IMG/VR virus record: IMGVR_UViG_3300010883_000248
Location: 1-31,402 of that record
Direction: 5' to 3' (one strand)
DNA: 31,402 nucleotides
DNA from: a virus
The translations under genes were made by a program, and so were the position numbers. The notes under the pieces are model-generated. The model saw only the letters and a list, made by a program, of their open reading frames with translations. It did no database searches and was not told the origin of the DNA. This document shows, in pieces, positions 5,644 to 19,575 of this stretch (positions within the stretch are counted from its first letter, which is position 1; every line of letters begins with the position of its first letter).

Positions 5644-6108
5644 TTATGCTTGTGTAATAATATCATTAACAATGCCGCTCACATACCAATTAGTACCATC
5701 GCTCCAACACTCTAGAGTATCTCCGATTTTAAAATTGCTTGAGTGTAACGTTAAGGTCGTCTTATTTGCAATAGCTACTCGGGCAACTGTAGCAGCGTTA
5801 GTATTGTGGTGATAACCACCTTGCATTACTGCACCGCCTCCGGTGATGACGTGTGCGTATGCTGTGGTAGCTACGAAACGAAACGACAAACCTGCTGCAA
5901 CGGCAGGCAGGGTGACTGTCGACGCGTTCGACCCCCCCATTTTAACAATGGCTCCTGTGTCTTCTGAAGTGAGTGTTGCAGTAGCGCCGGCGCCTGTCAG
6001 ACTGACAATCTTCGCCGGAGCGCCCATTAAGCTATTTCCTTGTAAGCTAAATCCTCCGCCTCCGCTTTGGACGAGCCCTTTACCTATTGTGTACTTTACT
6101 TGTGGCAT
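5644..6108 (-). CDS. Small beta-rich virion protein, possible capsid decoration protein
   Basis: 154 aa, ATG start with CAGGAG upstream. The composition is rich in Gly, Ala, Thr and Val with few charged residues. It starts MPQVKYTIGKGLVQSGGGGF and has alternating strand-like blocks: IVSLTGAGATATLTSEDTG, then STVTLPAVAAGLSFRFV and a final IGDTLECWSDGTNWYVSGI. This last type (GD...W.DGTNWYV) is common in small phage surface or fibre-like beta domains. No signal peptide or membrane segment is visible. The gene is GC-richer than most neighbours, like the capsid gene, which suggests high expression. It has its own upstream gap and ends at a strong terminator. A decoration or head-fibre role is inferred from composition and position only. 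Confidence 0.5.
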   Translation of the reverse strand: MPQVKYTIGKGLVQSGGGGFSLQGNSLMGAPAKIVSLTGAGATATLTSEDTGAIVKMGGSNASTVTLPAVAAGLSFRFVATTAYAHVITGGGAVMQGGYHHNTNAATVARVAIANKTTLTLHSSNFKIGDTLECWSDGTNWYVSGIVNDIITQA

Positions 6109-7117: not shown

Positions 7118-7151
7118 AAAAAAAAACGGGCTGCCAAAAATTGGCAGCCCG
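7118..7151 (-). terminator. Rho-independent terminator after the major capsid gene
   Basis: A perfect 11-bp inverted repeat at 7127-7137 and 7141-7151 (CGGGCTGCCAA / TTGGCAGCCCG) with a three-base loop, followed on the minus strand by nine T residues. It begins 22 nt after the capsid stop codon. Confidence 0.95.
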
Positions 7152-7172
7152 CAAATTCAAAATCTAAAAGAT

Positions 7173-9137
7173 TTAGATAATGTTAAGATCCAAGACCGTA
7201 ACAGTCCCGTAGAAATCGCTACGAACCATCTTCTTACCATAGCGAGTCATGACACCCTTACGCGGGGTGAAGTCCTCAGGAGCGAAGATAGTCGGAGTGA
7301 CGATAAGCGGAACATATGGAGCATAAACATACCCAGTCTCAAGATAACTACCACCCTTGTAACCAACAAGAATCTTGTTGCGGGGGAAGTAGGGGTCCTT
7401 GTAGACTGTGAAGCGATTGCTCAAAGTTCCAACCTTGTCGGCACCGAGACTGAATGGAGCACCAACCTGGCCATCACCATCAAGGGTGTAGTCAGGACGA
7501 TAGAGCACCGAAGCCTCAAGCATGGTAGCAACATCAGGTGAAACCACGATGAAGTTAGCGGAACCACGCAGCGTCAGCCGGTGAATCTCATTAGCAACAT
7601 CAATGATGGTCTCGACAAGAGTCTCATACCACTCACGAACCGTACCTGTAAAGGCTGGTCCCGGTGAGAGTGAAGAAGCCTTGGTAACTGCATTACCATT
7701 CTCACGATTAACAAAGTTACCCGGAGCCCGTGACCAGTAACGCGAAGTCTTAGCCTGCGTCAGGAGGTCGTTGAGAATCTCACGATCAATCTCTAGAGCA
7801 ATCTGCTCGGAGAGAATCTGTGTAAGCTCAACCTCAGCATCCAAGCTGTGATACGCGTTCAGGTCCTGAGCAAGCTCTGGGGACCAACGTGCACGCAACT
7901 TACGTGTAACCGCAGTAACTGCAATTGACTCAACCTTGATGTCAATTTCCGGAATAGTCGGTGAAGGTGACGAACCAAAATTAGACTCGAAGGTTGGAAT
8001 GGTGAGAGTATCACCATCACTACCGGCATTAAGAACCGGATCAATCGGGAATGACAGGCTTACCAATCCAAGTGATGCCACATCAGAGGCATCAACACCG
8101 TTACCAGAACAAATCAGCAACAAAGCACCTTCGGAGTTTGAAGGAGATACCAGCGGATTCGCTGTAAATGCAGAACCGTCCCAGGTACCAAGCTGGTTCA
8201 AACGACGAACGTTGACCAGATTAGTGCTACCCTGTACAGCGTTAGCAGTAGTAGAATCCACGTTCTTGAAACCTGTACCACCAGCCACTTGACCTGCTCC
8301 ATCACTGAAATACAGACCGAAGTCTTTCGCCATGGTCCAGTCCGGTGTACCACCACTATTGATAGTATCACCAGAAGCATCAAGGTTCGCAGTCTTCAAG
8401 ATAACCGCAACGTAGGTGTTTGGTGTTGCAACACCTGGATTGTTTTCAATCTTGGACGTCAGTTGAGGATCAAACTGTATCAGCTTACCATCACTACCTG
8501 TTGCTTCCAAATACACACCACTATCACCACCAGCCGAGAGAGAATTAGCTCCCTGATATGCACCAGAAGCAAATAGGTCTCCAGCCGCAAGATTGGATGC
8601 ATTATAAACGCGCGAATAACCAGATCCGGCCAGGTTATACTGTCCGCCGACTCCCAATGAGCCAGAACGGATGCCCTTACCAGTGGGCTGGTTGTAAATG
8701 GAACTACCGCTAGGATATACTGCGGCGCCCGCGGACGTTGACCCGCCGGCTCCATCAACACCACCTTGACCCGTGCCATATGTGTAATCCAAGTAGAAAA
8801 GCAGGCCAGAAGGCAGGCTCATCGGCTGGATAGAAACGAGTTCGTTAGCAACAAGGCCACCGAAAACCCGACGAACGATCGGGAAAGCGATATTGCTGAA
8901 GCCACGAAGATCACCGGAAGATGTCGTTAGACCTCCACCGGTTGAGATAGAGCTTTGCTCTCTAAGTACTTGGCCAGCCTGGTTTTCAAGCATGCGCGAC
9001 ATGTTTTCACGTTTGGTTCCTTCGAGTCCACGAAGGAGACCGGTGCGCGCCCACTTGTCAACAAGGCGACGATTGTGGGTACCCAGATGTCTCTGGCGTA
9101 TACCCTCTGTCAGTTGATTAAGTGAAAAAGTCTTCAT
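7173..9137 (-). CDS. Major capsid protein (T4 gp23-like)
   Basis: 654 aa, ATG start with AAAGGAGA upstream. Two blocks match the gp23 family. Residues about 29-115 hold WARTGLLRGLEG, MLENQAGQVLRE, FPIVRRVFGGLVANELVSIQ and PMSLPSGLLFYLDY; gp23 has LLENQ, VRR and VQPMNGPTGLIF in the same order. Residues about 411-445 hold RARWSPELAQDLNAYHSLDA and EVELTQILSEQIALEIDRE. An LRE at 58-60 fits the (L/I)-x-E cleavage rule of gp21-type proteases and lies where T4 gp23 loses its 65-residue propeptide. A Gly/Ser/Ala-rich insertion (about 123-400) makes it longer than gp23 (521 aa). It follows the scaffold gene and is closed by a strong terminator. GC-richer codon use than most neighbours fits very high expression. 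Confidence 0.93.
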   Translation of the reverse strand: MKTFSLNQLTEGIRQRHLGTHNRRLVDKWARTGLLRGLEGTKRENMSRMLENQAGQVLREQSSISTGGGLTTSSGDLRGFSNIAFPIVRRVFGGLVANELVSIQPMSLPSGLLFYLDYTYGTGQGGVDGAGGSTSAGAAVYPSGSSIYNQPTGKGIRSGSLGVGGQYNLAGSGYSRVYNASNLAAGDLFASGAYQGANSLSAGGDSGVYLEATGSDGKLIQFDPQLTSKIENNPGVATPNTYVAVILKTANLDASGDTINSGGTPDWTMAKDFGLYFSDGAGQVAGGTGFKNVDSTTANAVQGSTNLVNVRRLNQLGTWDGSAFTANPLVSPSNSEGALLLICSGNGVDASDVASLGLVSLSFPIDPVLNAGSDGDTLTIPTFESNFGSSPSPTIPEIDIKVESIAVTAVTRKLRARWSPELAQDLNAYHSLDAEVELTQILSEQIALEIDREILNDLLTQAKTSRYWSRAPGNFVNRENGNAVTKASSLSPGPAFTGTVREWYETLVETIIDVANEIHRLTLRGSANFIVVSPDVATMLEASVLYRPDYTLDGDGQVGAPFSLGADKVGTLSNRFTVYKDPYFPRNKILVGYKGGSYLETGYVYAPYVPLIVTPTIFAPEDFTPRKGVMTRYGKKMVRSDFYGTVTVLDLNII

Positions 9138-9180: not shown

Positions 9181-10245
9181 TTAGTTCTTGTTCGAAATTC
9201 CCGCAAGAACAGCCCATCGATCTACCTCATTTCCATTGTTGGTCGCGCTAGCTGACCGGATTGATCTGGAAGACGAACCGAGCGTTCGGGGGTTGCGTCC
9301 CTCAGCAAGTGAGCCCTTAGGGCCACGCTTGTTCAGAGAAGCAGTCAAACTCTTATAAAGCAACTTTGCTTCACGAAGAGTCTTAGCATTATCCAAAGCC
9401 TCAACGATTGCTCGCTGTTGCTTGGTATTGAGATTCCGGTTCTGCATCAGCTTATTGACATACAAAAGCTTTGCATTGAACAGGTTCATCTCAGTAAGCT
9501 GACCTTTAAGAGTACCAACAGCCTTGCGGTACTCAACCAGCTTTTTCTTGAGAGCGTGATTTTTACGGCTCTCATTCATTCCTTTAGTCTGTCGACGTCG
9601 CCGGCGTTCCACAACAGGCACATCCACCTCTGCAGATCCAAGCTCATCGGCGAGGGCGTTGATCAGGTCTTCCTCATCAACATCAACAATCACATCACCA
9701 AGATCCTCACCGCCGTGATCCAGGTATGGATCAGCATCAACGGCTTCATCTTGCTCACGAATGCGTCGCATACGCCGAAGTTCCTTACGAAGAACAGCTT
9801 CATCAATCTCAAGGACTTCTTCTTCGGCCTCTTCCCCGACTTCAACCTCTTCCTCTTCAGCACCGACGGTAAGATCCAATCCTAAGGCAGCGCCAAGATC
9901 TTCAAGGGCCGCTTCGGCATCCTCAACGGGAATCACATCTTCGATTGGACTTGCCTCAGCTTCAACTTCATCTTCGGCAAATTCAATTTCTTCATCCTGC
10001 TCACTCAACCCACTAAGGTAGGTCTCAAGCACCTCATCGGAAATTTCTTCCTCGGCTTCCTCTTCGCCCTGAACGACAACATCCACGTCCAAGTCTTCTA
10101 GGCTAGCCGAATTTTCCACTCCCAATACCTCGACATCATCTTCATCGAAAACAACATCGAACTCATCTAGATCGCCCTTGCGATCTCCTTCATACTGGCC
10201 TTCGAAAAGCCTATCAAACAAGGTGTTAGTTCGTCGCTTTGACAT
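9181..10245 (-). CDS. Possible short scaffold isoform from an internal start
   Basis: In-frame ATG at codon 208 of the long scaffold gene would give 354 aa beginning MSKRRTNTLFDRLFEGQ. The preceding bases read AAGGAGATAAAAAAA, a Shine-Dalgarno as strong as that of the capsid gene, nine nt from the ATG. The product would keep the acidic centre and the conserved C-terminal helical block and lose the N-terminal helices. Nested scaffold products are known in other phages (lambda Nu3 within C). Whether this start is used, or the upstream part was once a separate gene, cannot be told from sequence. Confidence 0.5.
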   Translation of the reverse strand: MSKRRTNTLFDRLFEGQYEGDRKGDLDEFDVVFDEDDVEVLGVENSASLEDLDVDVVVQGEEEAEEEISDEVLETYLSGLSEQDEEIEFAEDEVEAEASPIEDVIPVEDAEAALEDLGAALGLDLTVGAEEEEVEVGEEAEEEVLEIDEAVLRKELRRMRRIREQDEAVDADPYLDHGGEDLGDVIVDVDEEDLINALADELGSAEVDVPVVERRRRRQTKGMNESRKNHALKKKLVEYRKAVGTLKGQLTEMNLFNAKLLYVNKLMQNRNLNTKQQRAIVEALDNAKTLREAKLLYKSLTASLNKRGPKGSLAEGRNPRTLGSSSRSIRSASATNNGNEVDRWAVLAGISNKN

Positions 10246-10866
10246 TTTTTTTATCTCCTTAACAATAAAATTGTACTTTAAACGAATATTCTTTGCATTC
10301 GCCGTACCTTCTGTAAGTATTACGTCTTTACGTAAACTTATCATTTCTTTTAACAACTGTGTGTAATATTTGCGGACAGACTCCCATAGTGTGGAATCCC
10401 TTTTAACAGTCCCGACATGATTTAACAGCCTATTAAGGGCATTAAGATTTTTAGCTATACCGTCTAGGCTTTCAATAAGCCCAACATTTTTTTGAAGTTT
10501 AGAAGGATCTCTAATTAAATTTGCCAATGCGCGTGCTGATTCAGCATTTAAATTGACCAATAAATCTTCCTCCTCATCTTCTTCAGTTTCAACTGCCATT
10601 TCTCCTGATGAAACAGCAATATTTGCCTCACCATTGACATTGATATTAACAGTTTGTGAAGAATCATCATCCTCAAAAGATTCATCATCCAGATCTAGCA
10701 CATCTTCAATGCTATCAAAGCTCTCTTCATCGCCCATGAGCTCTTGCTCAATCAAAAAACGAATTTTTGGAGCCATGGCATCGATGATTTTATTTTTAGC
10801 ATTTTCTTCCGCTAACATTTTTAATTTTCTTGCATCTGCAATTGCATCATCAAACATTGTTGACAT
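9181..10866 (-). CDS. Prohead scaffold / head-core protein (T4 gp22-like), long form
   Basis: 561 aa from ATG 10866 with GAGGAGA upstream. The N-terminus is a helix, MFDDAIADARKLKMLAEENA, followed by IRFLIEQEL, then acidic stretches. The central region (about 230-400) is extremely acidic. A basic RRRRRQ segment near 425 precedes the most conserved part, residues about 448-507 (LKGQLTEMNLFNAKLLYVNK and KTLREAKLLYKSL), a helical block typical of scaffold/core proteins in T4-like phages. Scaffolds form the prohead core and are degraded by the prohead protease. Position directly before the capsid gene supports this. It is twice the length of T4 gp22 (269 aa). A strong internal Shine-Dalgarno and in-frame ATG at 10245 suggest that the C-terminal 354 residues are also made separately. 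Base composition changes there, with the 5' part more AT-rich. Confidence 0.75.
   Translation of the reverse strand: MSTMFDDAIADARKLKMLAEENAKNKIIDAMAPKIRFLIEQELMGDEESFDSIEDVLDLDDESFEDDDSSQTVNINVNGEANIAVSSGEMAVETEEDEEEDLLVNLNAESARALANLIRDPSKLQKNVGLIESLDGIAKNLNALNRLLNHVGTVKRDSTLWESVRKYYTQLLKEMISLRKDVILTEGTANAKNIRLKYNFIVKEIKKMSKRRTNTLFDRLFEGQYEGDRKGDLDEFDVVFDEDDVEVLGVENSASLEDLDVDVVVQGEEEAEEEISDEVLETYLSGLSEQDEEIEFAEDEVEAEASPIEDVIPVEDAEAALEDLGAALGLDLTVGAEEEEVEVGEEAEEEVLEIDEAVLRKELRRMRRIREQDEAVDADPYLDHGGEDLGDVIVDVDEEDLINALADELGSAEVDVPVVERRRRRQTKGMNESRKNHALKKKLVEYRKAVGTLKGQLTEMNLFNAKLLYVNKLMQNRNLNTKQQRAIVEALDNAKTLREAKLLYKSLTASLNKRGPKGSLAEGRNPRTLGSSSRSIRSASATNNGNEVDRWAVLAGISNKN
10243..10260 (-). promoter_or_regulatory. 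Strong internal ribosome binding site within scaffold gene
   Basis: The minus strand has AAGGAGAT, an A-rich spacer, then ATG at 10245. Read as protein the same bases encode VKEIKKM, so the site is embedded in an intact reading frame. The spacing (nine nt) and A-rich spacer closely match the capsid gene's initiation region. Confidence 0.65.
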
Positions 10867-10883
10867 TCTAGTCTCCTCACTTT

Positions 10884-10924
10884 AAAGTAAATATATTAAA
10901 AAAATAGTTTAATTCACTTACTTT
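10884..10924 (-). other. Imperfect hairpin spanning the bS21 stop codon
   Basis: A symmetrical inverted repeat: AAAGTAA at 884-890 of this kilobase pairs with TTACTTT at 918-924, and ATTAAA at 895-900 pairs with TTTAAT at 908-913, with a 4x4 internal loop and a seven-base hairpin loop. No T tract follows in the direction of transcription, so it is not a standard terminator. The arms are AT-rich; stability is modest and chance is possible. Confidence 0.35.
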
Positions 10925-11135
10925 TTTTCATTTGTTCCCGCTGTTGCCGTAATTTCCCCGCATGAGACCGTTTCCGGCGCCTCTCACCTTTCGGCATAAA
11001 AAATGAACGATCCTTAACTTCTTTCACAATTCCTTCCTCTTTGCACTTCCGCAAAAATTTGCGAATAAGTTGCTCGGTGGTCCTAATTTTACCACCTAGC
11101 TTAACACTAACATTGATTGGAGTTTTTTTTCCCAC
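10914..11135 (-). CDS. rpsU-like: Phage-encoded ribosomal protein bS21 homologue
   Basis: 73 aa from a GTG start with AAGG upstream. It follows the bS21 pattern over nearly the full length: INVSVKLGG, then LIRKFLRKCKEEGIVKEVKD (compare the bacterial RRFKRSCEKAGVLAEVRRR), RSFFMPKGERRRKRSHAGK and a basic helical tail. Length matches bacterial bS21 (about 70 aa). bS21 sits near the 3' end of 16S rRNA in the 30S subunit and helps initiation on mRNA. Phage versions are known from pelagiphages and huge phages and are thought to enter host ribosomes. Here it lies inside the late head operon, directly before the scaffold and capsid genes, so it is probably made during virion synthesis. No key part appears to be missing. 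Confidence 0.9.
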   Translation of the reverse strand: MGKKTPINVSVKLGGKIRTTEQLIRKFLRKCKEEGIVKEVKDRSFFMPKGERRRKRSHAGKLRQQREQMKKSK

Positions 11136-11183
11136 AGCTTACTACCTTCTCTTATCCTTGTTTTATATTACTACAAACACAGC

Positions 11184-11828
11184 TTAAAAACCCTTCGAGT
11201 TTTGATTATGTATTCTTTTTAGCGTCTTTTCTATTTTAGCCAAAGTTAATTCATCATCGCTTAAAATATCTTGTAATCTATACGCTGTAATTTCGTCTTC
11301 ATCATCTTCAAGCGCTATGGCAGCTTTGGGAGGGCGATGAGCATATCCTTGTTCGGTACCTGTTTTAAAAGCTGAACTAGACGTAAATGAGGGATTGGTC
11401 GAAGAACCGCCAGAAACTGCCTGAATTTTTTTAGTCCAACCAGGAAATGGAACGATACTGTTTTTTGCAAAAGGCATACCAGACTCAGAAACTCCTCCAA
11501 GTCCAGGTGTGTTTCCGGCTACGTAATAAAATGGATCTGTTTTGTTTTTGGCAAGAAAATCAACAGGTGAATAACCTAGATTAACTTTTTTTACAAATTT
11601 ATCCAATTCGTCCTCGTCAAATGCCAAATCATATTCCTCCGTCTCATATTCATCCGGAGCCGTATATGGAAAAGTGTCACCAGAATTGCGGGGCTCATTG
11701 AAACCGGTAGGGCTGACTTGTCCATATCCCAGGCCTTTTCTATCATCAGGGAATAAAGCGCCATGATTACGATATGTACCTTTGGTGCTTACCTTTGCAT
11801 GACGAGAAATTCCTGTTTGTTCTTGCAT
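11184..11828 (-). CDS. Conserved-looking virion-region protein of unknown function
   Basis: 214 aa, not recognised. No clear Shine-Dalgarno precedes ATG 11828, so the start is only probable. The N-terminal 60 residues are Gly/Tyr/Pro-rich and extended (GTYRNHGALFPDDRKGLGYG, then FNEPRNSGDTFPYTAPDEYE). A short acidic helix (DEDELDKFVKKVNLGY), a Gly/Ser-rich linker and a charged C-terminal helix (ITAYRLQDILSDDELTLAK) follow. There is no membrane segment. It lies between the three paralogous genes and bS21, and its low-complexity style resembles those paralogues but lacks their shared motifs. A minor head or internal core protein is possible from location alone. Confidence 0.7.
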   Translation of the reverse strand: MQEQTGISRHAKVSTKGTYRNHGALFPDDRKGLGYGQVSPTGFNEPRNSGDTFPYTAPDEYETEEYDLAFDEDELDKFVKKVNLGYSPVDFLAKNKTDPFYYVAGNTPGLGGVSESGMPFAKNSIVPFPGWTKKIQAVSGGSSTNPSFTSSSAFKTGTEQGYAHRPPKAAIALEDDEDEITAYRLQDILSDDELTLAKIEKTLKRIHNQNSKGF

Positions 11829-11867
11829 AAAACTAAATAGGTTTTAAAAAATAACTTTACACTAGAA

Positions 11868-12503
11868 CTAAGCAGGACCTGTTGCACCAGAATCACCGAG
11901 AAGATAATCACCCAATGTAACAGCCTCTACATCCTTGTAGTCCTTGTCATCCCAACCGGTACCATCTTTCAAGATATTAACGGACGCATTTTGAGGACTA
12001 AGCAATGTACCTTCACCCACAAATGGAGCAGACGCCTTGTGCCCAGGATCATTTGCCCAATCAGATAACACTAAATCCACAGATCCATCGGCATTCTTTC
12101 TAGGGTCGGGTTGTGCATAGGGATCTGCATTTGGGGCAGATTTCAAGTTGGGAACAAAAGAATTGATTGGGTCACCCGGTGAATAAACATAATCCCATCC
12201 TTGCCCAAAATCGTAAGCCGGAGGTGTTAACACGCCATAACCCAAATAATCTCGATTAAATGGTACCTCAAATGCATAATAACCGCCTGAATCTTCAACA
12301 GCACCCCGCATCACCTGAGTCCGAAATGCTTTCTTTACCAGGACATCAGTCATTTTTGGATTGTCAGAGGTATCAAGCACTAATGGACTTCCATGGAAAG
12401 CCTCAGAGAGTATTTCGGAATCCGCTGTTGAAAACCCATTTAGGGATCCCAGACTTCGCTCAGTAGGTTGTACAGGTTCTACAACAGTTTGGGGTGTCGG
12501 CAT
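11868..12503 (-). CDS. Tandem paralogue 3 of an unrecognised head-region family
   Basis: 211 aa. The ATG overlaps the preceding stop (TAATG) and its Shine-Dalgarno GTAGGAGA lies inside the previous gene's end, so translation is coupled. Shared family motifs in order: PQTVVEPV near the start; FSTADSEILSEAFHGSPL; a GGYYAFEVPFN block; PPAYDF; GDPINSFVPNLKSAPNADPY; DWANDPGHKASAPFVGEG followed by SPQ; and a C-terminal LGDYLLG. It is Pro/Asn/Asp/Gly-rich with little predicted helix. No enzymatic motif or membrane segment is seen. It is closest to paralogue 2. Function unknown; placement among prohead genes suggests a virion or assembly component. Confidence 0.78.
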   Translation of the reverse strand: MPTPQTVVEPVQPTERSLGSLNGFSTADSEILSEAFHGSPLVLDTSDNPKMTDVLVKKAFRTQVMRGAVEDSGGYYAFEVPFNRDYLGYGVLTPPAYDFGQGWDYVYSPGDPINSFVPNLKSAPNADPYAQPDPRKNADGSVDLVLSDWANDPGHKASAPFVGEGTLLSPQNASVNILKDGTGWDDKDYKDVEAVTLGDYLLGDSGATGPA

Positions 12504-13180
12504 TAGGTGATATCTCCTACCAGCTGATCAGGTGAAGGCTCGCCTGATTTAGGAACTCCTCCAGCATATCCCGGCATATAATTTCCCAATAATTCGGATG
12601 AAACATCCTTAGGATCTGTACCAGGAATAACGGACCACCCTGTATCATTGGTTCCATAGAGCTGATCAAATGTTGTTTTTTGAGGAGAAACAGCGGTTCC
12701 AGGACCCATAAATGGTGATGACCCCTTATTTCCATCGTCATTAGCCCACTCTGTCATCTTGGGACCTGGTTTGGGCTGCTGCAAAGGATCAGCGTTGGGA
12801 GACGACATAAGATTAGGAACAAAAGAATTAATCGGGTCGCCTGCCTTTTGCCATTGAAAATCATAAGCAGGGGGTGCTAAGGGTGCACCATCATCCAAAT
12901 CAATGGCTGGACCTTGAAAATTAAGATTAAATGGAATTGGAAAACCCCAGTATGCACCGTCTTCTACGACACCATTCATCACAAAAACCGCGAAAGTAGT
13001 TTTCACTGCCGCATCGTTCATGTGTTGAATTTCTAAGGGATCACCATGGGGGGCAACTTCAGCGTGTTGGCCTGTTATGGGACTGGCTGAGAATTGCTGC
13101 GCCAAGGATTTATAATCCGACGTTCCCATCCCTCCCTGTGTCTTGACTTTTACATCAACTATAGTTTGGGGAAGAGACAT
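12503..13180 (-). CDS. Tandem paralogue 2 of an unrecognised head-region family
   Basis: 225 aa, ATG start with TGGAGA placed in the last codons of the preceding gene. It shares with paralogue 3 the PQTIVDV start, the PPAYDF block, GDPINSFVPNLMSSPNADP, a QPKPGP linker, EWANDDGNKGSSPFMGPGT, the SPQKT element and a LGNYMPG ending. The central segment AYWGFPIPFNLNFQGP corresponds to GGYYAFEVPFNRDYLGYG of paralogue 3. The protein looks extended and beta/loop-rich with no recognised catalytic residues. The near-identical architecture of adjacent genes shows duplication followed by strong divergence. Function unknown. Confidence 0.78.
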   Translation of the reverse strand: MSLPQTIVDVKVKTQGGMGTSDYKSLAQQFSASPITGQHAEVAPHGDPLEIQHMNDAAVKTTFAVFVMNGVVEDGAYWGFPIPFNLNFQGPAIDLDDGAPLAPPAYDFQWQKAGDPINSFVPNLMSSPNADPLQQPKPGPKMTEWANDDGNKGSSPFMGPGTAVSPQKTTFDQLYGTNDTGWSVIPGTDPKDVSSELLGNYMPGYAGGVPKSGEPSPDQLVGDIT

Positions 13181-13183
13181 TTA

Positions 13184-13690
13184 TCAATCTCCAGTGTATT
13201 GTGACCTACCTGGATTTGTCGACATTACATAATCACCAAGCTTTGTTTTGGCGATTTCTTTCGCGGTTTTTGACGGACTGATTCTGCCTTCACCACTTCC
13301 ATATGTTTGGTTGGTTGGTACCTGATCAGCATTAGGAGGTTCAGGTAAATCAGTGGGATTTGTAGATCCTACACCGGGAGAAGCCACGTTCGGAACAAAC
13401 GGAGTCGCAGGAAGACCAGCGGCGCCAGTCTCCACATCTTCAAGATTAGGAGCATCCGGATAGGTAGGGTTATACTCTCCAAAATAATATCCTCCATCAT
13501 TGATGGGCTTCATTAGAACATCTTCATATTCAGCCGTGACAGACTCATCTGTCATTGTCTGCCTACCAATAATTGGTGACTGAGGAAATGCTTTGCTCAA
13601 AAGCTTTGAGTTAGCCGTGGAGTATCCCGCAACATCACCCAATCCACCGTCGGTCTTAAGCGGCTCAACCATTGTTTGTTTTGAAGCCAT
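13184..13690 (-). CDS. Tandem paralogue 1 of an unrecognised head-region family
   Basis: 168 aa, ATG start with GGGAGA upstream. It is the shortest and most diverged member. It retains the KQTMVEPL start, GYSTANSKLLSKAFPQSPII (closely matching paralogue 3), a GGYYFGEYNPTYPDAP block, PFVPNVASP, PPNADQ, the SPSKT element and a LGDYVMS ending. It lacks the PPAYDF and WAND-x-G-x-K segments, which accounts for the shorter length. It opens the three-gene block; the next gene starts three nt after its stop. No function can be assigned from sequence. Confidence 0.75.
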   Translation of the reverse strand: MASKQTMVEPLKTDGGLGDVAGYSTANSKLLSKAFPQSPIIGRQTMTDESVTAEYEDVLMKPINDGGYYFGEYNPTYPDAPNLEDVETGAAGLPATPFVPNVASPGVGSTNPTDLPEPPNADQVPTNQTYGSGEGRISPSKTAKEIAKTKLGDYVMSTNPGRSQYTGD

Positions 13691-13714
13691 TTTTTTCTCC
13701 CAAAATTAATTTAA

Positions 13715-13993
13715 TTACAGTTTCTTAATTATTCTTTTCCGCAAATGCTTTTTGGCTTCCGCAATGCGAAAAAGACGCTTTTTCAATTTATTCTCTTTGA
13801 TTTTTAGCACATTCATCCAATCGATGTCTTGTTCCAGAGAATCAGCCAATTCATCGGCAGGGACTTCCTCAGCCTTTTCAGCCACTTTTGTAGCATCCTC
13901 TTCACCTGTCTCCAGGACTTCCATCATCTTTTTCTTTTCTTGTAACACCAGGCGCTTAAGCAATGCCGGTGTTAATTTAGTTCTCTTAGCCAT
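13715..13993 (-). CDS. Small highly charged helical protein, possible head-core component
   Basis: 92 aa, ATG start with a strong TAGGAGGAA upstream. The N-terminal helix (KLTPALLKRLVLQEKKKMME) is followed by an acidic, Ala/Glu-rich middle and a very basic C-terminal helix (ENKLKKRLFRIAEAKKHLRK). The whole protein should be helical. It has no membrane segment or enzyme motif. Its size, charge pattern and location between prohead protease and scaffold recall the small core proteins gp67/gp68 of T4, but there is no sequence-level proof. Its N-terminal helix resembles that of the neighbouring 138-aa protein. Confidence 0.65.
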   Translation of the reverse strand: MAKRTKLTPALLKRLVLQEKKKMMEVLETGEEDATKVAEKAEEVPADELADSLEQDIDWMNVLKIKENKLKKRLFRIAEAKKHLRKRIIKKL

Positions 13994-14497: not shown

Positions 14498-15106
14498 TTA
14501 TTCCCACGTTAACACATCGTTAAACAGGCGATCAACCCTATCTGTCTTATTGAAAACCTTTTTCAATTCGTCTTTTCCAATCTGGCGACCTTCTTTCATC
14601 ATAAATGCACCGGGTGTGGAAGGTTCTGAAACAAAATCCCAACAGATTAACTGGAAATCATCTTGCACAATGTCATAATCACCCTCCTGTCTTGTAGATC
14701 CAACTCCGCGGGAAGATATTCCTAGTGTAACACCAGATTCCACCAAACTTTTTAAAATCTTTCCGCATGGCGTATCCAAAAGTTCAACAACCCCATATAC
14801 CGAATCATCTTCCATATAGGCTTCACGAATGATATGAGAAACATTTTTAAGTTCCACCACTGAACTATCTGGGTGATCACATTCTCCCAACGCGCGATTT
14901 TCCCTAATAAATTTCTGATAATTGCGAATTTCTCGCTGCAAAATATCTTTTGGATACATGCGCCCATTCTGGTTCAACGTTTCAGCTTTTTGTAATATAC
15001 CTTTCATCAGAATTTTTCCGCCATTCTTTTCCATGGACTCTTTAATCATGTCCTTGCTGTATTCAAACGGGGACCAGTCGGAAATTACTTTTAAATTAGC
15101 GCTCAC
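14498..15106 (-). CDS. Prohead maturation protease (T4 gp21-like)
   Basis: 202 aa from GTG 15106 with GGAGA upstream, overlapping the previous gene by 11 nt. It has the gp21-type serine protease signature: NQNGRMYPKDILQREI near residues 46-60, ALGECDHPDSSVVELKNVSH with candidate catalytic His78, LDTPCGKILKSL, and GVTLGISSRGVGS with the Ser at 131-132. This enzyme is assembled inside the prohead, activates itself and cleaves scaffold and capsid propeptides after (L/I)-x-E sites before packaging. The length matches T4 gp21 (212 aa). The location between portal and scaffold matches the usual order. Confidence 0.9.
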   Translation of the reverse strand: MSANLKVISDWSPFEYSKDMIKESMEKNGGKILMKGILQKAETLNQNGRMYPKDILQREIRNYQKFIRENRALGECDHPDSSVVELKNVSHIIREAYMEDDSVYGVVELLDTPCGKILKSLVESGVTLGISSRGVGSTRQEGDYDIVQDDFQLICWDFVSEPSTPGAFMMKEGRQIGKDELKKVFNKTDRVDRLFNDVLTWE

Positions 15107-15959
15107 ATTGATTCTCCAAAAGCTCTTGTTTCAAGCTTGATATTGTTAGAAGACGGGAAACAGTGACATCATCAATCTGCTTCACTTGAAAATTGTTGAT
15201 CTTTTTTATAACATTTTCTATTTTCTCATTTAAGACATCATTATTGCATGTCTTCGAATATTCCTGGATTTCCTTAATTGCCTGCTTTTTTAGCTCATCA
15301 TATTTTTCAATCTTCACGGGACTGTTTAAATCTGTATCAAAAACATATTGCATGACAATATCTTGTTGTTCTTTATTTAAAGAATCTCCATATTTTTTAT
15401 TAAATTTTTCATTCATAATCTTAACGGTTAACGCATTGATATTTTCCGTCCCGCATTCTTCATCATGCAAAAGACTATGCACGGTTTCAGACAAAAGCCA
15501 ATTCGTAACCTCATTTTCATATTTTACCACACGGGCAATATCGGCTTTCTCATTTTTTCGCCAGTCATTAAGAAGAGTCTGAATGGTGGCATAATCACGA
15601 TATTCTTTAATTCGCTGATTATAAAAAGTTGAATCATCCAAAGTACAATTAATTTTTTTAATTAATCCTGATTTTTCATGGCGCAATTTATTCGCATTAA
15701 AATTCCTGGAAGCGTTTCTTGCATCCTCCAAAATCCTTGTTGCCAAACCTTCACGAGGAACGCGCGTTTTTATCAAAGCATTAAAAAGACGAAATTCCCG
15801 ATAAAGCTCTGTGCCAGGTTTAAAACATTCTCGAATTATCTGAAGTATTTGTTTGGCTTTCCTGTAATCCTTTTCCAAAACAGCTTTTGACATATATTTT
15901 GTCAATTGCTCAAATATGATCCCTACATTTCGTTTTTTATTGTGAGATCCTTTATTCAT
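15096..15959 (-). CDS. Helical protein between portal and protease, function unknown
   Basis: 287 aa, predicted almost entirely helical. The start ATG overlaps the portal stop by 8 nt (ATGAATAA), with GGAGAG inside the end of the portal gene. The N-terminal half holds KKRNVGIIFEQLTKYMSKAV, a helix with KAKQILQIIRECFKPGTELY and EFRLFNALIKTRV, a pattern that looks conserved and not low-complexity. The C-terminal half is Lys/Glu/Asn-rich coiled helix. No catalytic motif or membrane segment is visible. In T4 the corresponding interval (between genes 20 and 21) holds core proteins gp67 and gp68; this protein may fill a comparable assembly role, but it is much larger and no homology can be claimed. 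Confidence 0.78.
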   Translation of the reverse strand: MNKGSHNKKRNVGIIFEQLTKYMSKAVLEKDYRKAKQILQIIRECFKPGTELYREFRLFNALIKTRVPREGLATRILEDARNASRNFNANKLRHEKSGLIKKINCTLDDSTFYNQRIKEYRDYATIQTLLNDWRKNEKADIARVVKYENEVTNWLLSETVHSLLHDEECGTENINALTVKIMNEKFNKKYGDSLNKEQQDIVMQYVFDTDLNSPVKIEKYDELKKQAIKEIQEYSKTCNNDVLNEKIENVIKKINNFQVKQIDDVTVSRLLTISSLKQELLENQCER

Positions 15960-17919
15960 TTTCTATCTCTCCATCATTTCCATGATCTTCCGATAATAGT
16001 GAAACTGACTTCTTCAAACCCAACGCATTGCCCAGTCTTCCCAAAGTACGTTCTAACTCAGAAGTCATCATTGCATTTTGACCAATCCTGCTATTTAAAT
16101 AAGTATTCAAGAAAGAGTCTTCCACATTTTCTCCAAAAGGATTTTTAAGTGATTCCTTGTCATAGGGCATATTCATGGAATCCTGAGCACGGCCTGGGCG
16201 TCCGACACTGGCCATCTTGGCAAGATTCGGCATATGTGTAGAAGCCGGTCCTGAGGTAACCTTTCGGCTTTTCTTAATAGGCTCATTAAACACATTTCGG
16301 ATCTGTTTTTGGGCTTTGGCTGGAGCATTCATATCATTCAATGATAGCTTTAATATATCATCATCCTCGTCCTCGTCCTCATCCTCGTCAATACCCGAAT
16401 CTTCATCGGACGGTGTTGCTATAAGCAATGGGCCATCTGTTTCATCGCCTGCGAACAGACCGCCACCTTCTTCATCTCCTCCAGCCGGCTCTTCAGTTCC
16501 GCCGGTCTCGCCGGCCGGGGGCTCGGTGCCAACAGTTTCAAGCTCCGAGTCCCTAAGCTTATCTTCTTCCCTACCTTCTTCGATTCTCTCAATCTCTAGA
16601 TCGGTTAAGCCCATCACATTTTTGCGAATCCAAAATCGATCCACAACACCCTCGGGAGCTGTTCCAGCAATCTCAAATCGAGTGCGAATTAATTCCAGTT
16701 TTTGCTGTTGTGCAATTGATGATGGGTTTGAAAGAGCAAGATCAAAATCAATTAGATCATCACCCTCATATCCGTGACAATAAAGGTGAATCATCGCTAG
16801 TTTATTAAGTTCTGATACAACAGTTTTTTGAATTCGTTGAATTGAGCGAGAAAACCTAATATCCTCTTGTGCCAATGTTGCTTTTGCCCCAACATCTTCG
16901 TCATAACCCAAATATGCACGTGGAATCTTTAGCGCAGCGAATAGTTTCTTTTGGATGTATTCCACATCTTCAATGGCTGCAGTGTTCTGGCCACCAGCCA
17001 GTGTATCAATTTTGGTGCCAGATTCACTACCCCTCACAGGTAAAAAGTAATCCTCATCAACTGAAAGTGGATTATATCTCAGATCCACTTTCCCCGTTGT
17101 TTTATCAACCACCTGACCACGTTTTAAACTTGTCTGTGCCTGCTGAAGATAATCAGCAACATTTTCGGGAGGTACATTTCCCACATCAATGTAAAATACT
17201 CTTCGCTCAGGCGCGCGGATGACGCGATAAACAAGCATGGCATCTTCAATCAAAATCAACTGGCGCCAGATTCTTCTAGCGGATTCCAGCACACTCGTAC
17301 CGTATGGAAGAAATGCATCATTTGCCAGGAGCCGAAAATGACTAATTTGCCAGTTTTCAAGAACCGTGTTTCCCTGTGTCATCCATCGAAATCTCACTGC
17401 AGCTGGGTTATTAGGATCAAAGCCCTCTTCTCTCTCAATCTCAGATATTGCAATTGGAAAAGCATTTATCACGCCATATTCAGGAGATATATCATTGAAT
17501 AGAAAAAAGTCTCCATATTTGCAAAGATTTCGCACCCACATAACCAAATTAAATTCAATATTCAAAATGTCATAGAAGAGATTATCCAACAATTCATGAA
17601 TGCGACGATTCTCTGAATAGATGTGGAGAACTTTGCCCCTTTCATCCGGTGAGACAGTCTCTTCCGAATAGATGTCCAAAGCTGAAGCAATTTCCGGTGT
17701 GGCTTCCATTTCGCTGAAGTCACTATATCGTGACATCCGATCAAAAGCGCCATATGCGCTTAAAGCGCTATTATATACATCACTATGCGCGCGTTGGAAT
17801 AATTCCAGCGCAGTCGAAGCTCCGGGTTCCGCAAAATTCCTGACCTTTCTTTTGATGATCGGGCCGGACCTAAATAATTGTGTTAGTCTTTGAAACAGGC
17901 TTTGGGTTTTTCTCGGCAT
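15952..17919 (-). CDS. Portal protein (T4 gp20-like)
   Basis: 655 aa, ATG start with AGAGGAAATG upstream. Recognisable gp20-family blocks: YSDFSEMEATPEIASALDIY near residues 63-82, ETVSPDERGKVLHIYSENRR, FRLLANDAFLPYGTSVLESA, then VYRVIRAPERRVFYIDVGNV, VDEDYFLPVRGSESGTKIDT followed by AGGQN, and KIPRAYLGYDEDVGAKATLA. The portal forms the dodecameric ring at one capsid vertex through which the terminase pumps DNA and to which the neck attaches. It is longer than T4 gp20 (524 aa) because of an acidic, Gly/Pro/Glu-rich tail after residue 460 that includes a run of alternating Asp/Glu. It follows the large terminase gene with a 54-nt gap. Confidence 0.93.
   Translation of the reverse strand: MPRKTQSLFQRLTQLFRSGPIIKRKVRNFAEPGASTALELFQRAHSDVYNSALSAYGAFDRMSRYSDFSEMEATPEIASALDIYSEETVSPDERGKVLHIYSENRRIHELLDNLFYDILNIEFNLVMWVRNLCKYGDFFLFNDISPEYGVINAFPIAISEIEREEGFDPNNPAAVRFRWMTQGNTVLENWQISHFRLLANDAFLPYGTSVLESARRIWRQLILIEDAMLVYRVIRAPERRVFYIDVGNVPPENVADYLQQAQTSLKRGQVVDKTTGKVDLRYNPLSVDEDYFLPVRGSESGTKIDTLAGGQNTAAIEDVEYIQKKLFAALKIPRAYLGYDEDVGAKATLAQEDIRFSRSIQRIQKTVVSELNKLAMIHLYCHGYEGDDLIDFDLALSNPSSIAQQQKLELIRTRFEIAGTAPEGVVDRFWIRKNVMGLTDLEIERIEEGREEDKLRDSELETVGTEPPAGETGGTEEPAGGDEEGGGLFAGDETDGPLLIATPSDEDSGIDEDEDEDEDDDILKLSLNDMNAPAKAQKQIRNVFNEPIKKSRKVTSGPASTHMPNLAKMASVGRPGRAQDSMNMPYDKESLKNPFGENVEDSFLNTYLNSRIGQNAMMTSELERTLGRLGNALGLKKSVSLLSEDHGNDGEIENE
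16358..16390 (-). repeat. Short tandem repeat encoding the acidic tract of the portal
   Basis: Imperfect hexamer repeats (TCCTCG/TCCTCA on the + strand) encode an alternating Asp/Glu run of about eleven residues. It is a coding low-complexity tract within the disordered portal tail, prone to length change, not a mobile or CRISPR repeat. Confidence 0.7.
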
Positions 17920-17973: not shown

Positions 17974-19575
17974 TTAAACTAACCAAGATAAATCGCCATA
18001 AACAGGATGGCATGATCCACTAACTGCGGCGAATGGCTCATTTAATATAATTGGAATAAATGGATTTAATTTTTTTGCCACCCACGGACTCTCGTGTGAT
18101 ATTTGACTCTGACTTTCATTGACCTTTAGCGCATCCAGCATCGCCTTATTGACATCGACTGTATATTTGTTATAAGAAGGTGTTGTATCATATAACCAAA
18201 CGCCAATAGCCACTGACATTACAAGATCATCATTCTTTCCCTTTTGTGCCTGGGCCTTTGCACCCTTCCAAATGAATGTTTTTAATTCTTCATATAACCT
18301 AGAAGACGGAATCTTGAGTTGGCGATTTCTTATTACTTCTTCCAGCTTGGTGAGAATCTGATTTCGACTCTGTCCTGAAGTAGTAAACCCAATTTTATGC
18401 AAATTACTTTCGCCTGAATACATGCTGGCATAGCGATCCTTAGAGCTCTTGAAATATAAATTAGGATACCCTAATTCCTGCAATTTCATAACCACGGCAT
18501 AACCGTAAGTATTATTTTCTGGACACAGAAGTGCCTTGTTATAACGCATGCCAGCCTCATTCAGAAGCAACGCAAACTGATCGGGTGGTAATTTACCTTT
18601 ATACTCCGCCACAATCTCAGACTCCATGGTATCAATCACATGAAATGCCGAATAATCAGCTGCATCCCCGCGGGCGACGTCTGCAGAAATAATATAGTGA
18701 TGTTCAGATAATGCATATTTCCAAACCCACACACCCATATCAGGACCCCATTTCTCCAATGGATTTTTAACACCAGCCCTGATGTATTCTATATCATCTA
18801 TTGTAAGGAAGGTATCACCGCTAGCTGCAAAGTCACAAAGAAATTCTTGCGCAACTTGTTTCCTAGAAAAGTTTTTGGATTCATTCTCAAACCATTCTTC
18901 ATCGTGTTCTGGATGTACCCACCATGGAAGCTTAATGGGATTAAACTCATTTTCCCCCTCATCAGCCTTCATATAAAGCTCATGGTATTGTCCACCAACA
19001 CCATTAGGAGTTGAAAGAACAATGGAGCGCCCACCAGTTGATATTGTAGGATAAAGGCCCATCCATAGCTCATCAAAATTTCTCACAAATGCAGCCTCAT
19101 CCACAATCAAAAGTGATAAGGCCTCAGAGCGACCAGCATCATCTGATGTGGGAACAGCTTTGATCTGTGAGCCATTGCTAAACTCTAGCGATTGCTTATT
19201 GTTAGAAACAATTTGGGGTAGCACAAGCCATGATGGCAAATTTTTTATGGCTACTTTCACTTTTTTAATAAAATTTTGTGCAACTGCTAACTTTGTCGCA
19301 ATAACCAAAACGCTTTTATCTTTATAAAAAATTGCCATCCATACGGCATATGCTGCTGTAAGGGTAGAAATACCGAGTTGCCTCGATTTTAAGATGATGT
19401 TGAATCGGTGATCTACAAAATCCTTGAGACATTCATCCTGAAATTTGTAGGTTTTAAAAGAAATCAAGCCGCGGGTTGGATGTTGGATCTTAACGTATTT
19501 ATTTAAAAAATAAACTGGATCTTTTCCGCACTTTACTATTTCAGTAACTTGCCGTTGCTTGCTCGTAAAGGACAT
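17974..19575 (-). CDS. Terminase large subunit (T4 gp17-like)
   Basis: 533 aa; the ATG overlaps the stop of the preceding gene (TAATG). The N-terminal ATPase has a Walker A KSRQLGIST at residues 63-71 (gp17 has SRQLGKTT), Walker B LLIVDE at 155-160 and a coupling motif STPNG near 188-192. The C-terminal RNase H-like nuclease has acidic residues in IISADVARGDAADYS (D299, D304), LLCPENNTYGYA (E353) and KNDDLVMSVAIG (D449/D450). It drives ATP-dependent DNA packaging through the portal and cuts concatemers. It is slightly shorter than T4 gp17 (610 aa). The portal gene follows directly. Confidence 0.95.
   Translation of the reverse strand: MSFTSKQRQVTEIVKCGKDPVYFLNKYVKIQHPTRGLISFKTYKFQDECLKDFVDHRFNIILKSRQLGISTLTAAYAVWMAIFYKDKSVLVIATKLAVAQNFIKKVKVAIKNLPSWLVLPQIVSNNKQSLEFSNGSQIKAVPTSDDAGRSEALSLLIVDEAAFVRNFDELWMGLYPTISTGGRSIVLSTPNGVGGQYHELYMKADEGENEFNPIKLPWWVHPEHDEEWFENESKNFSRKQVAQEFLCDFAASGDTFLTIDDIEYIRAGVKNPLEKWGPDMGVWVWKYALSEHHYIISADVARGDAADYSAFHVIDTMESEIVAEYKGKLPPDQFALLLNEAGMRYNKALLCPENNTYGYAVVMKLQELGYPNLYFKSSKDRYASMYSGESNLHKIGFTTSGQSRNQILTKLEEVIRNRQLKIPSSRLYEELKTFIWKGAKAQAQKGKNDDLVMSVAIGVWLYDTTPSYNKYTVDVNKAMLDALKVNESQSQISHESPWVAKKLNPFIPIILNEPFAAVSGSCHPVYGDLSWLV

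Follow-up and report, generated by a model that had tools for sequence, protein, structure and literature searches.

A bS21 gene before the scaffold and capsid genes in a lineage of T4-like phages

Identity of the bS21 gene

The window analysed here, a 31,402-nucleotide stretch of viral DNA (IMG/VR record IMGVR_UViG_3300010883_000248), harbors a phage rpsU-like gene on the minus strand at 10914..11135. The gene opens with a GTG start and encodes a 73-aa protein, MGKKTPINVSVKLGGKIRTTEQLIRKFLRKCKEEGIVKEVKDRSFFMPKGERRRKRSHAGKLRQQREQMKKSK, that is a genuine bS21. An earlier note made from the letters alone described a bS21-like ORF here and proposed a profile search as its check; the exact ORF is present, and the search returns significant matches above the curated cut-offs of both NCBIfam TIGR00030, the 'S21p' equivalog (E=6.9e-10, 38.6 bits; cut-off 28.95 bits), and Pfam PF01165 (E=4.2e-7, 30 bits; cut-off 27 bits). 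The ORF also matches PHROG 21469, 'ribosomal protein S21' (2e-6), and among PDB sequences it matches bS21 chains best (1.5e-4). It is the single bS21 match within the whole 31-kb window.

An AF2 model predicts a helical, bS21-like layout with helices at residues 20-34, 36-44 and 49-72 (mean pLDDT 77.5, pTM only 0.37). The best Foldseek matches in the PDB are human and mammalian mitoribosome small-subunit chains, at E values of 1.1 and 2.3 that are non-significant for this small, helical protein. Sequence conservation across the 16 relatives compared extends broadly over the core motif IRKF..KC...GI..E...R..F and the basic C-terminal helix; the N-terminal segment, NVSVxLGG[KR][IV]R, is unlike that of cellular bS21. 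Between the window and its closest orthologue, bS21 differs at 16, 10 and 38 sites in codon positions 1, 2 and 3, and a second pair of relatives (L098 and L099) has a dN of ~0.1 against a dS of ~0.8-1.4. These codon-position differences and substitution rates indicate that bS21 is under purifying selection.

The head cluster around bS21

All assigned genes of the cluster lie on the minus strand and follow the T4 gene order: terminase, portal, protease, small genes, g214, bS21, scaffold-like gene and capsid gene. The large terminase (17974..19575; PF03237 1.2e-15, PHROG 2) is followed by the Gp20 portal (15952..17919; PF07230 1.6e-77), the prohead protease (14498..15106; PF03420 5e-26) and, at the far end, a 654-aa major capsid protein of the Gp23 family (7173..9137; PF07068 4e-77). 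A Gp23 capsid, Gp20 portal, S77 protease and T4-type TerL in one cluster identify a T4-like tailed phage. The window holds no tRNA and no Rfam family.

Immediately upstream of bS21 lies g214 (11184..11828, minus strand), a gene without a Pfam or PHROG match that is kept in relatives and overlaps the bS21 start in several of them. The 48-nt leader between the two (11136..11183, minus strand) carries a partial Shine-Dalgarno (SD) site, GAGAAGG. Directly downstream, across a gap of 47 nt, a minus-strand gene at 9181..10866 encodes a 561-aa acidic protein that is conserved in relatives and is probably the prohead scaffold or core; it has no convincing Pfam or PHROG profile match, and we infer its function from its position before the Gp23-type capsid gene and its composition. 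The co-directional slot directly before the scaffold and capsid genes, which the earlier note had pointed out, is thus borne out, and it is conserved in relatives.

Because the gaps are short and a terminator scan finds no terminator-like site from g214 to the scaffold gene, the leader included, late co-expression of bS21 with the capsid genes is likely. A strong terminator-like hairpin on the minus strand just after the capsid gene (7126..7152; 12 pairs and a T run) is possibly the end of a bS21-scaffold-capsid transcript. T4-type late promoters (TATAAATA) show no excess over shuffled sequence, and control through this motif was rejected on that ground.

Other features of the cluster concern its gene content. 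Between protease and g214 (11868-13690, minus strand), two neighbouring proteins, of 211 and 225 aa, are clearly paralogous and arranged in tandem (38% identity, 5e-40), and the next protein, of 168 aa, bears a weaker relation to them (7e-9); the copy number of these paralogues appears variable among relatives. The Gp23 profile matches two stretches of the capsid protein, the main one at residues 390-644, suggesting that the 654-aa protein holds a large internal insertion relative to the ~540-aa Mel-JY01 and immuto proteins.

Distribution among relatives

Relatives were drawn from 80 mapped IMG/VR loci with related capsid genes and from further loci added through bS21 itself. They include 16 bS21-positive lineages in two sequence groups, a count that reflects selection by capsid or bS21 similarity and is not an estimate of the carrying fraction in the population. 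Group 1 has 11 members, the window among them, and group 2 comprises 5 representative lineages; in all 16 lineages and their near-copies, bS21 occupies one and the same slot, flanked by g214 (or its equivalent) and the scaffold gene, on the strand of the structural genes. The nearest relative of the window is L075 (267 kb), whose bS21 is 81% identical, its terminase 91% and its capsid 80%.

In 38 further relatives placed in the tree, g214 or its equivalent runs straight into the scaffold gene. Most large bS21-negative contigs also lack bS21 elsewhere; in one of 257 kb (G004), a weak hit that misses the cut-off lies far from the head genes. Since so many head clusters have an empty slot and most large contigs among these relatives carry no bS21 at all, the gene is, judged by gene content, dispensable.

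On the capsid tree, the presence of bS21 requires at least 3-4 changes, whether gains or losses. Under approximately unbiased (AU) tests on that tree, a clade of group 1 by itself is not rejected (p=0.37), and one of groups 1 and 2 together is borderline (p=0.08). In the bS21 tree, which is weak for a protein of ~70 residues, both groups stand apart from the Chen-type sequences discussed below. A single origin of the two groups was considered and set aside: they joined at 92/81 in one bS21 tree, and the grouping was no longer resolved once two long-branch sequences were added. Conserved-peptide patterns, which detect only fairly close relatives, were scanned against 84,980 genomes in search of a cellular source and returned nothing related to the bS21 of either group.

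Two relatives differ from the window in the copy number of other genes. L004 carries two tandem capsid-gene copies (9995-13891), 71% and 70% identical to that of the window, and in L075 three consecutive ORFs (12099-13634) resemble the single window gene at 5644-6108, an amplification of a small post-capsid gene. The 267-kb relative (L075/G044) also encodes a tmRNA (L111 4004-4405, minus strand; Rfam 2.6e-51) with the tag ANTDTYNDYALAA, and eight tRNAs were found in L075; tmRNA and tRNAs are a possible clue to the host.

Shine-Dalgarno use

The earlier note had proposed that a phage bS21 could tune initiation towards late mRNAs carrying strong AGGAG sites. An SD scan finds that the sites on late genes are real. 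Their tie to bS21 does not hold: strong SD sites precede 78% of late genes in group 1 and 85% in group 2 versus 76% in bS21-negative relatives (Mann-Whitney, all positives vs negatives, p=0.20), and bS21-carrying phages of the Chen type have SD-like sites at 3% of their genes. SD strength was therefore rejected as the reason for bS21, the bS21-negative relatives being no different.

The site of bS21 itself, GAGAAGG before a GTG start, is weaker than AGGAG. Across genomes the bS21 site has a median of -5.4 kcal/mol and is modestly weaker than those of its neighbours in most; in the window it reaches -6.4 kcal/mol, near the operon median and not weaker than its neighbours. Autoregulation in mirror image, through an unusual SD site on bS21, is unconvincing given sites that are only modestly weaker.

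Counted over all genes, SD-like sites occur at 48% in the window, 63% in group 1 and 58% in group 2, over a background of 8-10%, and at 3% of genes in Chen-type loci over a background of 6%; the underlying ORF calls are simple ones that start at the first ATG, so the counts are comparative, not absolute. The host of the window phage probably uses SD recognition, judging from its genes.

Comparison with other bS21-carrying phages

A head-linked bS21 has been described before. Chen et al. (2022) found bS21 in the terminase-portal-protease-capsid region of Bacteroidetes jumbo phages, on the opposite strand, and measured high bS21 transcription alongside the capsid genes (PMC9723584). In their proposal, the phage protein takes the place of host bS21 and selects phage transcripts late in infection, and their survey counted core structural genes within ten genes of bS21 in 388 of 900 published bS21 phages (PMC9723584). 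The combination of late expression and a bS21 that biases 30S initiation is thus an already published hypothesis, not a new one. To call the use of phage bS21 poorly understood, as the earlier note did, is fair, with the reservation that the hypothesis was already in print (PMC9723584; PMC6375957).

Loci of the Chen type (clades a-e) were recovered from IMG/VR (L135-L154). They share with the window a T4-like head cluster of TerL, portal, protease, scaffold and capsid genes enclosing bS21, with a capsid identity of 36-46% to the window lineage. In Chen-type loci that cover both genes, bS21 is flanked by portal and protease and runs on the opposite strand, whereas the window and all its group 1 and 2 relatives have it co-directional and before the scaffold gene; SD-like sites occur at 48-63% of genes in the window lineage versus the 3% of the Chen type. 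On gene position, orientation and translation-start style, the window lineage is separate from the Chen type.

The two also differ at a residue of known function. In Flavobacterium johnsoniae, Tyr54 of bS21 stacks on the anti-SD (ASD) tail, and an aromatic residue is conserved at this position in Chen's phages (PMC9723584). Aligned to the F. johnsoniae reference, which was checked against PDB 7JIL, the window protein has L in the position-54 column, and an aromatic residue occurs there in 0 of 16 group 1 and 2 sequences. Because its genes are SD-rich and this column lacks an aromatic residue, the ASD-blocking route of Bacteroidota is an unlikely one for the window bS21.

Two phages outside the lineage have a similar arrangement. 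The cultured Microcystis phage Mel-JY01 (PP395634.1) carries a co-directional RpsU in its head cluster, between protease and capsid, and uses SD sites (42%), like the window lineage; it differs in that two more genes separate RpsU from the scaffold-like gene and in its divergent bS21 sequence. In LR756508, a 484-kb uncultured huge phage, bS21 lies directly upstream of a scaffold-like gene on the same strand, as in the window, but the protein is divergent and unplaced in the tree, the upstream genes are different, and SD use is low. Elsewhere, bS21 keeps other company: in Pelagibacter phage HTVC008M it lies in a CobS, Hsp20 and DNA-polymerase neighbourhood, unlike the head cluster of the window, and in HTVC008M, Melnitz, PA5oct and Vibrio 2.275.O it neighbours Hsp20/Clp-type, tRNA or IF-3 genes, away from the head cluster. 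Because Mel-JY01 and LR756508 are head-linked and the bS21 genes of other isolates stand in different neighbourhoods, head-cluster placement probably arose more than once. The HTVC008M protein is incorporated into 70S ribosomes in E. coli, and with it in-vitro translation falls to about 5% (Mizuno 2019; PMC6375957).

Proposed role and alternatives

The favoured reading, held with somewhat more confidence than doubt, is that a functional phage bS21, made late, joins the host 30S subunit and there supports or skews initiation while capsid protein is being made. bS21 would be made together with the capsid precursors and would enter the host 30S in place of, or on top of, host bS21. bS21 is a loosely held subunit that is among the late arrivals on the 30S and can come off mature ribosomes again (PMC9976891). 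Subunits bearing the phage protein would then maintain initiation, or bias it, as late phage mRNAs surge in an SD-using host. Preference for phage mRNA would be the least certain step, and incorporation into the ribosome seems more likely than such a preference. Experimental support comes by analogy from HTVC008M bS21; counting against the reading are the 38 relatives that do without the gene and the equal SD strength of late genes in bS21-negative phages. A more specific version is doubtful: head-linked bS21 would have arisen independently in SD-using and SD-free lineages, and that of the SD-using lineage would bias late ribosomes towards phage mRNA through its altered N-terminal segment near the mRNA path, unlike the ASD-blocking Tyr54 type.

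The role of bS21 could also be inhibition rather than support, given that HTVC008M bS21 cut E. coli translation so severely (PMC6375957). As a full account, in which phage bS21 enters host ribosomes mainly to lower their activity on host mRNAs, inhibition is unlikely. The departure of the N-terminal segment from cellular bS21 would suit it, as would the residual activity of about 5%, but that activity was measured in a foreign host, a late head operon would be poor timing for host shut-off, and an inhibitor would also harm capsid synthesis unless phage mRNA were spared. Placement amid small head genes and directly before the scaffold/core gene would agree with a protein packaged in the head like the T4 internal proteins, injected, and acting on ribosomes as the next infection begins, and packaging has been suggested for phage bS21 (PMC9723584). 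This is distinctly unlikely: the protein is small and basic, retains the full bS21 core, and showed neither a packaging signal nor a protease site in this analysis.

The invariant position beside the scaffold gene and the divergent N-terminus could instead mark a bS21 fold repurposed, off the ribosome, to bind nucleic acid or scaffold during head assembly. Such repurposing is quite improbable: the protein remains above the equivalog cut-off of TIGR00030, heads are assembled without bS21 in many relatives, and HTVC008M, Melnitz, PA5oct and Vibrio 2.275.O keep theirs away from the head genes. Patchy presence, with a minimum of 3-4 changes on the capsid tree, might reflect a neutral passenger gene derived from a host and retained by chance. 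The strong purifying selection on the protein sequence, the fixed slot across deep divergence and the recurrent head-region placement in other lineages make this very improbable.

Implications

To our knowledge, no ribosomal protein is carried by phages more often than bS21. The two head-cluster arrangements found in related T4-like phages look independent, because they differ in site, strand, sequence type and translation-start style. Together they argue for late timing as the selected feature, and against either SD recognition or ASD blocking as a sufficient explanation by itself. The similar arrangement in the cultured phage Mel-JY01 makes the question testable in culture.
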